This document shows, piece after piece, positions 37,272 to 39,238 of a stretch of 64,000 nt of DNA. A program made the position numbers and the translations under genes. Origin of the DNA: Methanococcoides orientis (GTDB lineage: Archaea > Halobacteriota > Methanosarcinia > Methanosarcinales > Methanosarcinaceae); the NCBI RefSeq assembly GCF_021184045.1, contig NZ_CP073710.1, positions 558,001 through 622,000 of the forward strand. Direction: 5' to 3'. The notes under the pieces were generated by a model, which worked only from the letters and a program-made list of their open reading frames with translations, searched no databases and was not told the origin of the DNA. Each line of letters begins with the position of its first letter. The first letter of the stretch is position 1.

Positions 37272-37307
37272 ATGCATGTGCCGGATGCATAGTATTATTG
37301 TTTTTTT
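37272..37307 (+). terminator. Intrinsic-type terminator after the XRE-CBS gene
   Basis: ATGCAT (37272-37277), a 7-nt loop GTGCCGG and ATGCAT (37285-37290) form a 6-bp stem, followed by AGTATTATTG and seven T (37301-37307). Confidence 0.5.
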
Positions 37308-37587
37308 GCTGCTTACAACATGCAATTATCGGGCTATATTATCGAGATGGAGGAACATTTCTCATTTTAGATAATGAAATGCTAGCTACATGTTAGATTG
37401 ACATCGATTCAATCAAACTATAATAGCATAATAAACAATTAAACCAACTCTGGAATATAAACCTTCTTTAAAAATACAGTTAATCGAATTCATGAATAAT
37501 ATTTAATTCGATGATTAGGGCAGAATCACTTATAATGCTATACTGCATACTATAATACTAAGGAAATTGCTACAAGGGGTAATATAT
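37308..37587 (+). promoter_or_regulatory. Intergenic region before the second NosD-like gene
   Basis: 280 AT-rich bases with no coding frame. Possible TATA elements are CTTATAATGC near 37530 and ACTATAATAC near 37549. AAGGGGT (37575-37581) serves as the ribosome binding site for a TTG start at 37588. Confidence 0.35.
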
Positions 37588-38520
37588 TTGAAAATAAGAG
37601 TTTGTTTTATAATAGCTTTTATTTTTCTGATAATGGCTGCAGGTATTACAGTAGCAGATACTATCACTGTGGATGATGGTGGTGGGGCTGAGTATACCAC
37701 TATAGAGGAAGCTGTAAACAATGCAAATCCTCATGATACTATCATCATTCATCCTGGAACGTACACCGAAAATGTGGATGTGAACAAATCGTTAACCATA
37801 ATATCACAATCTGGGAATCCAGATGATACTATTGTTCTAACTGCAGATTCGAATGATCCTGTTTTTTATGTGACAGCAGATAATGTGACAATTAAAGGGT
37901 TTACTTTAAAAGGTTCTAATTATATTCGCGAATACGGAATATATCTTAATGGAGCCAATAATAGTAGTATTAGCGACAATAAGTTACTTGATTATTGGTT
38001 TGGTATCAAAGTTTGGTCATCCAATAACAACATTCTGAGGAACAACAGCATAATAAATTCTAATAATAACCATATTGGAATAAACATGGGCTCTTCCGAC
38101 AGCAATACCCTAATCAATAACACTGTATTAAATTATCACTATGCAGTTACGATGAGCTTATCCAACAACAACACACTAAGCAATAATAATTTATCATACA
38201 GCAACAGCGATGGAATCGCTACAAATAATTGTCAATATAACCTGTTACTGAATAACATTGTAAACTCTAATGCTGATTCTGGCATTCATTTTCGTAATTC
38301 AAGCAATAACAGGATAATTGGCAACATCATATGTAACACCACTAAATATGGGGGCATATCTTTTTTAGACGGAAGCCACAATAACATCGTCTACAAAAAT
38401 CACTTCAACAACAACAAAAATGATGTAATGACTTTTCCCAAGTATAAATTTATTTACGATATTTTTCTAGGAATCTTCCAGAAATATTGGGATTCTTTTT
38501 TAAAAATTATTCCTGACTAA
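37588..38520 (+). CDS. NosD-like parallel beta-helix exported protein
   Basis: About 310 residues from TTG 37588 (AAGGGGT 6 nt upstream; an earlier TTG at 37567 has none). Signal peptide (KIRVCFIIAFIFLIMAAG to VADT), then the NosD opening motif TITVDDGGGAEYTTIEEAV and PHDTIIIHPGTYTENVDVN, then PbH1 beta-helix repeats (NNSSISDNKLL, SNNNILRNNS, NNTLSNNNLS). It ends with a hydrophobic, aromatic tail (FIYDIFLGIFQKYWDSFL), not a usual anchor. Shorter and less regular at DNA level than the protein at 22851. Surface role likely; ligand unknown. The neighbouring genes give no functional hint. Confidence 0.75.
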   Translation: MKIRVCFIIAFIFLIMAAGITVADTITVDDGGGAEYTTIEEAVNNANPHDTIIIHPGTYTENVDVNKSLTIISQSGNPDDTIVLTADSNDPVFYVTADNVTIKGFTLKGSNYIREYGIYLNGANNSSISDNKLLDYWFGIKVWSSNNNILRNNSIINSNNNHIGINMGSSDSNTLINNTVLNYHYAVTMSLSNNNTLSNNNLSYSNSDGIATNNCQYNLLLNNIVNSNADSGIHFRNSSNNRIIGNIICNTTKYGGISFLDGSHNNIVYKNHFNNNKNDVMTFPKYKFIYDIFLGIFQKYWDSFLKIIPD

Positions 38521-38590
38521 TTTTATTTAAGGGCAAGGACTTATCTTCATCATAGCAGATTGGATTATAGAATCTCAATCTCGTAACCAT

Positions 38591-38630
38591 TAAAAAAGAA
38601 AAAAAGAGGTTCTGATGTTGAATCAGAATC
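38591..38630 (-). terminator. Intrinsic-type terminator of the three-TAG gene
   Basis: On the minus strand a stem of seven perfect pairs (TTCTGAT 38610-38616 with ATCAGAA 38622-38628 on the plus strand), extended to nine with one wobble, overlaps the TGA stop and is followed by a run of T with few interruptions (plus-strand A-run 38592-38605). An intact terminator argues for a transcribed gene. Confidence 0.65.
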
Positions 38631-39105
38631 AGTCTGAATGAAGAAGTCTTACTGTGTCCCTGATCCGGAAGGAATCGCCATCATACATACCTGTCAAAGG
38701 TAGGTAACCATGGTAACCCTGTCTATCCCCTTCAATATACTAACCATCTTCAACCATACCTCGTAGTGTATCTCTATCCGGACTAAAGTGAAGCACCAAA
38801 TCCATATAGGTATCACCATTGACATCTTCATATCCAGCCATGAACTCTCCATCTTTGGGTCCATGATTGAACTTATCTGGTGCAACCCCAGCAAACATCA
38901 CACTATTTAGATCTATCAGGTTTACATCAGAGGTGGGTGAACCCAATATTGCAACTGGGATCTAACCATTGGCTTTTACATTAATGGAATTTGGCTATGA
39001 ATCATATTTGATGTCTAAACTTACTCCAGGCGCAATCGCGGTGCCCGCGGCCACTAGCGTTAGTAGTAATGCTATGGCTAAAATACCTATTTTCTTTGCT
39101 TTCAT
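38629..39105 (-). CDS. Secreted protein gene with three in-frame TAG codons (pyrrolysine candidate or recent pseudogene)
   Basis: Read from ATG 39105 the frame encodes a signal peptide (KKIGILAIALLLTLVAAGTA) and a domain found in exported proteins: NSINVKANG, IPVAILGSPTSDVNLIDLNS, VMFAGVAPDKFNHGP, the calcium-loop-like YEDVNGDTYMDLVLHF, and LPLTGMYDGDSFRIRDTVR. It ends at TGA 38631-38629. Three internal stops, all TAG, lie at 38997-38995 (after YDS, before PNSIN), 38964-38962 (after KANG, before IPVAIL) and 38742-38740 (after VEDG, before YIEGD). There is no frameshift, and homology-like motifs run on both sides of each. A start RBS-like GTAGGT, an upstream TATA element (about 39180-39192) and a terminator are present. 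UAG read as pyrrolysine would give a 158-residue precursor; a decayed gene is the alternative. Confidence 0.6.
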
Positions 39106-39238
39106 ACCTACTACCCCCATATATTATTTTATTAGATGGTCTTGTTCGGATCAGCTAATATCAATTAAAAGTTATATGTTTAGTAATATATATTCTCTCT
39201 GCAAAAATGAAAAAAGATGCGAATTATAATAATGATGA

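Follow-up and report, generated by a model that had tools for sequence, protein, structure and literature searches.

Three in-frame TAG codons in a secreted-protein gene of Methanococcoides: a probable exported, diversifying Ig-like protein with several pyrrolysines

A gene on the minus strand of the window, the 64,000-nucleotide stretch of Methanococcoides DNA analysed here, contains three in-frame TAG codons and, judged from its sequence and from that of its orthologues, is very probably a working gene in which UAG is read as pyrrolysine (Pyl); its product would be an Ig-like protein that is exported, diversifies and contains two or three Pyl residues. The host possesses the genes for Pyl decoding and scarcely uses TAG as a stop, TAG codons of the gene are conserved between species, and the sequence beyond the first of them (TAG1) evolves in a frame-specific manner. 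Pyl would be incorporated from this mRNA and the product would be exported, and an extracellular use of Pyl chemistry is conceivable. Outside three cytosolic methyltransferases, natural pyrrolysine is hardly known.

Results

The reading frame and its flanking elements

The gene occupies positions 38629..39105 of the window (minus strand) and is recognized as that of a putatively exported protein of 158 residues by its frame, its orthologues and its frame-specific evolution. Read from 39105 to 38629, the frame comprises 158 codons followed by a TGA stop codon (38629..38631), its only interruptions being the TAG triplets at codons 37, 48 and 122, exactly as in the original prediction of a frame that runs from a signal peptide to TGA through three TAG codons. 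With O at TAG, the translation is MKAKKIGILAIALLLTLVAAGTAIA...SOPNSIN...GOIPVAILG...DGOYIEG...LLHSD. The N-terminal segment MKAKKIGILAIALLLTLVAAGTAIA (39031..39105, minus strand), judged by eye, is a putative Sec-type signal peptide, whose MK..K start and hydrophobic stretch the relatives retain. After two TAG codons, the acidic, calcium-loop-like core motif EDVNGD....DLVLHF (codons 93-107; 38785..38829, minus strand) is intact.

Upstream of the gene, a TATA-like promoter element, AATATATATT (39185..39194, minus strand), has a counterpart, TTTATATATT, in M. vulcani. Downstream, a terminator-like hairpin, TTCTGAT-TCAAC-ATCAGAA with a 7-bp stem, is followed by a T-run (38592..38628, minus strand), and both recur in three other species, being common to M. 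vulcani, M. seepicolus and a TAG-free homologue in another Methanococcoides genome (G010). Thus, the TATA element and the terminator that had been described as kept are indeed present, although the hairpin by itself is no stronger than those of shuffled sequences (z -0.9). The local RNA structure around TAG1 was ordinary (z 0.36), and therefore no claim of an insertion element is made.

Synteny with M. vulcani breaks at window positions 37273-38536, just downstream of the gene, where the window side of the break is occupied by a gene for a secreted NosD-like beta-helix protein (37567-38520).

Decoding of UAG in the host

The host genome is a single contig of 2,494,162 bp and, among named species, is closest to Methanococcoides vulcani and M. 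seepicolus, with neighbouring DNA 85-89% identical to that of M. vulcani. The proposal that UAG can be read as pyrrolysine in this host was borne out by a search for pylTSBCD, which returned a complete set: pylS, pylB, pylC, pylD and a tRNA-Pyl with anticodon CUA form one cluster, pylB, pylC and pylD being named from gene order and sequence. The pylS gene was found in all 11 genomes of the genus, and two mtmB genes of the host, with one TAG each, served as positive controls. Beyond tRNA-Pyl, no CUA anticodon was found among the tRNA loci examined with ARAGORN (52 matches in the genome, all read one by one apart from a few tRNAs such as additional copies of repeated genes).

The stop codons of 366 genes, delimited by a codon-score gene finder in the window, twenty 20-kb stretches and the pyl locus, were TAA in 185 cases, TGA in 180 and TAG in a single one, pylB. 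When ORFs of at least 100 aa were called with table 11 in 464 kb without the pyl locus, 3/347 ended in TAG and all three had coding-like continuations, in a spaced sample of about a fifth of the 2.49 Mb and by a crude method that may misjudge short continuations. In this genome, TAG thus appears to be little different from an ordinary sense codon. Of the stop triplets counted in all frames, 18% are TAG, so that the chance that three out of three random nonsense mutations would be TAG is about 0.006, instead of the roughly 1 in 27 given originally.

The only apparent TAG terminator found lies inside the pyl operon itself, where pylB (L018:8129-9262, minus strand) appears to end in TAG; the 42-codon extension beyond it is non-coding-like and overlaps the start of pylC. 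This arrangement could make the expression of pylB or pylC sensitive to the Pyl level.

The three TAG-ending ORFs with coding-like continuations encode an FrhB-like protein, an S8 protease and a hypothetical protein. The S8 (subtilisin-like) protease is large and secreted (L040:9451-13365, minus strand) and has one in-frame TAG, which is replaced by Gln in a 93%-identical orthologue from another Methanococcoides and is absent from a paralogue in the same genome, so that this protease is a second candidate for an exported Pyl protein. A small-protein gene (L043:12971-13501, plus strand) has one in-frame TAG, and a protein 100% identical to its product, even at the TAG, is encoded in Methanococcoides G010, an identity that suggests recent exchange. 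In the gene of the FrhB-like iron-sulfur protein (L032:17686-18858, plus strand), TAG stands 45 codons before TGA and represents either Pyl near the C-terminus or else a true TAG stop.

Orthologues and the three TAG sites

Orthologues were found in M. seepicolus LLY and M. vulcani SLH 33, with proteins 56-59% identical, against 82-99% for the products of neighbouring genes, and all of their internal stops are TAG. All three Methanococcoides species have TAG at site 1 (codon 37; 38995..38997, minus strand; context S-O-PNSINV), inside a block of identical DNA, TCATAGCCAAATTCCATTAATGTAAA. Among the residues that the TAG-free homologues have at this position are Phe, Asp, Tyr, Ser, Cys, Glu and Trp, but never Lys. 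Site 2 (codon 48; 38962..38964, minus strand) is TAG in the window species only and Glu (GAG/GAA) in both M. vulcani and M. seepicolus. Accordingly, the suggestion that Trp, Lys or Gln codons had given rise to the TAG codons did not hold, as codon 48 encodes Glu in the relatives and Lys never occurs among them at codon 37.

Site 3 (codon 122; 38740..38742, minus strand) lies in a length-variable loop that carries one TAG in each of the three species and is mostly missing from the TAG-free homologues. Only a placement of gaps chosen for the purpose brings these TAGs into one column, and the default MAFFT alignment leaves them 1-3 columns apart; once the TAGs are aligned, theirs is the sole invariant column within eight positions on either side. 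The criterion of PMC1914089 asks for in-frame stops that are TAG only and that coincide in orthologues from at least two species; such coincidence is found strictly at site 1, through gap placement at site 3, and not at site 2. Outside the three species, no TAG was found in the gene among 112 genomes of the family.

Sequencing error as the source of the TAG codons was ruled out by independent assemblies, since those of two other species carry TAG at the same place. The M. seepicolus copy sits at a different locus, and the DNA that the other copies have in common with it extends for only ~560-690 bp, as if the gene had moved as a small cassette together with its terminator; the shared TAGs have thus survived a move or transfer. 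Judging from the alignment, the best explanation is that site 2 is a newer change from Glu to Pyl, and that site 1 and the site-3 loop have kept TAG across the divergence of the three species.

Frame-specific evolution beyond the first TAG

Beyond TAG1, every indel among the three species is a multiple of three, TAA and TGA are absent, and the core residues of the family are retained. The original description of domain motifs that continue across the TAG codons without frameshift was thus confirmed, and the close relatives were free of the scattered TAA, TGA and frameshifts that decay of the gene would leave. The neutral chance of finding no TAA or TGA in the three species is about 0.04 (the product of three values), which is not tiny.

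The stronger signal came from the substitutions, which avoid third codon positions in this stretch. In the three species pairs, pS beyond TAG1 was 0.117, 0.169 and 0.142 and pN was 0.268, 0.303 and 0.327, so that pN exceeded pS in each pair, a difference that neutral simulations reached with P between 0 and 0.005 (about 0.001), the three pairs not being independent. Untranslated DNA would not give such a pattern, so the stretch beyond TAG1 appears to be translated and its protein diversified; likewise, since selection sees the sequence beyond TAG1, the full product would matter to the cell. Over the whole length of the gene, omega between the window species and M. vulcani was ~1.4, compared with 0.02-0.18 for seven neighbouring genes, and synonymous divergence was modest (dS ~0.2). 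Recombination among divergent alleles may contribute in part to the omega above one. The codon score was weak in the last segment, beyond TAG3 (0.8 over 36 codons).

A diversity-generating retroelement, suggested by the variable patches of the gene, was set aside, as the changes affect all bases.

Domain and predicted fold

An alignment of 46 sequences revealed a domain of secreted proteins from bacteria and archaea, with the core motifs DIKPGSxPNSIN, GxIPVAIL, EDVDGDGDxDLVLHF and a terminal DSVR-like motif; its core residues D31, K33, N39, N42, D98 and D102 are present in the window protein. Sequence searches of Pfam, NCBIfam and PDB returned no family or model covering the domain. An AlphaFold2 model, in which Pyl was represented as Lys, is a beta sandwich with a mean pLDDT of 85.6, and in it site 1 falls in the loop preceding strand 39-42, site 2 directly precedes strand 49-54, and site 3 lies within strand 119-123. 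Fold comparison (best VIA Z 5.8, with rmsd 4.4 and 104 aligned residues; best Foldseek E 0.008) indicated a generic Ig-like arrangement only. The window protein is therefore predicted to be a single Ig-like beta-sandwich domain.

No close relative was found in viral contigs with the protein as query, an alignment query retrieving six distant members of the domain family, and the phages and plasmids searched were likewise without a close relative; a viral origin is thus unsupported.

Discussion

According to the proposed mechanism, pyrrolysyl-tRNA(CUA) supplied by the pylTSBCD genes of the host would decode UAG in this mRNA and the ribosome would terminate at UGA. The signal peptide would direct export and then be cleaved, and the mature product would be one Ig-like domain in which residues 37, 48 and 122 are pyrrolysine. 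A special recoding signal would be unneeded, because UAG is hardly a stop and almost a sense codon in this Methanococcoides; for the same reason, Pyl decoding would be the default in this genome. Diversifying selection probably drives the evolution of the protein, much as it would that of a recognition protein that is secreted or displayed at the cell surface.

Other fates of the UAG codons have to be weighed against this one. It is very improbable that the gene is a young pseudogene, i.e. a dead secreted-protein gene hit by three nonsense mutations and with its frame otherwise undamaged so far: its amino-acid divergence, high next to that of its neighbours, could suggest relaxed constraint, and the weak codon score after TAG3 would fit as well, but an excess of pN over pS is not expected of a dead gene, the codon-37 TAG is common to three species, one of which has the gene at another locus, indels come in threes without TAA or TGA, and promoter-like and terminator-like elements are retained. 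Predominant termination at UAG in a working gene, with a 36-residue pre-peptide as the main product and read-through as a minor or regulated event dependent on the supply of Pyl (methylamine growth), is improbable too. Competition between release factor and Pyl-tRNA is possible, and the TAG end of pylB, with its non-coding-like extension, indicates that UAG termination may still occur; yet such a pre-peptide would leave only ~11 residues after signal cleavage, efficient termination at three successive UAGs would result in a very low yield of the full-length protein, selection acts beyond TAG1, and the genome avoids TAG as a stop. Decoding of UAG as an ordinary amino acid, through another suppressor or a near-cognate tRNA, is scarcely credible: Glu at codon 48 of the relatives and Gln at the TAG of the S8 protease orthologue would agree with it, but no further CUA anticodon appeared among the tRNAs examined, and tRNA-Pyl and PylS are both present.

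Decoding as pyrrolysine leaves two views of what the residue does. The chances are about even that Pyl is passive here, TAG being tolerated at permissive sites and kept by descent while the residue itself has no function, a view that is compatible with Pyl decoding. It is favoured by the near-sense status of TAG in the genome, by site 2 and the S8 protease TAG, which look like sporadic replacements of Glu and Gln, and by a dS of ~0.2, at which simple inheritance may account for the two shared TAGs. A function is favoured, on the other hand, by the persistence of both old TAGs in a region in which over half of the alignment columns vary, and no column of the site-3 loop other than that of the TAG is fixed. 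Tentatively, and with rather less probability, Pyl may be a selected functional residue, placing two or three electrophilic imines on a rapidly diversifying, secreted Ig-like domain for extracellular recognition or reversible covalent capture.

With MtmB, MtbB and MttB of the Methanosarcinaceae, the gene read as encoding pyrrolysine shares in-frame UAG, tRNA-Pyl and a host with pylTSBCD, two mtmB genes being present in the same genome. Those methyltransferases are cytosolic and have one catalytic Pyl, whereas the window protein is small, putatively exported, has two or three sites and is unrelated to them. Kivenson et al. have reportedly described an archaeal 'Pyl code', in which some archaea read all TAG codons as Pyl. 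The near absence of TAG stops and the spread of TAG across unrelated genes are features of that code as well; in contrast, the present case concerns one specific, putatively exported family with conserved sites, in a genome where pylB still seems to end in TAG. The core motifs (DIKPGSxPNSIN ... GVIPVAIL ... EDVDGDGDxDLVLHF ... DSVR) and the predicted Ig-like sandwich are common to the window protein and the wider domain family, from which the Pyl branch differs by the extra loop with site 3 and by TAG at the variable site 1.

Among the non-methyltransferase candidates for Pyl, transposases and Thg1 have been put forward (PMC8211752), as has a TetR-type regulator with TAG in two Methanosarcina, described as the sole non-methyltransferase family with cross-species conservation of TAG (PMC1914089), and 16 Pyl candidate proteins were listed for Ca. 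M. alvus, in which TAG makes up 1.6% of gene stops (PMC4153887). As here, in-frame TAG occurs in additional genes of archaea that decode Pyl and make low use of TAG stops; in the parts of the three reports considered here, no candidate is presented as an exported protein having more than one Pyl site. Export, the number of Pyl sites and diversifying evolution thus set the window gene apart from known Pyl proteins. Because TAG hardly ever serves as a stop in this genome, the phenomenon is less exceptional than originally supposed.

Genes of this kind, with TAG inside the frame, are cut short when annotated under the standard code. A conserved, putatively exported family with several Pyl sites, in a genome that has all but abandoned UAG as a stop, lets one ask directly whether pyrrolysine drifts into tolerant sites or is recruited for extracellular chemistry, and functional extracellular Pyl, if true, would be a use of this residue beyond intracellular enzymes.
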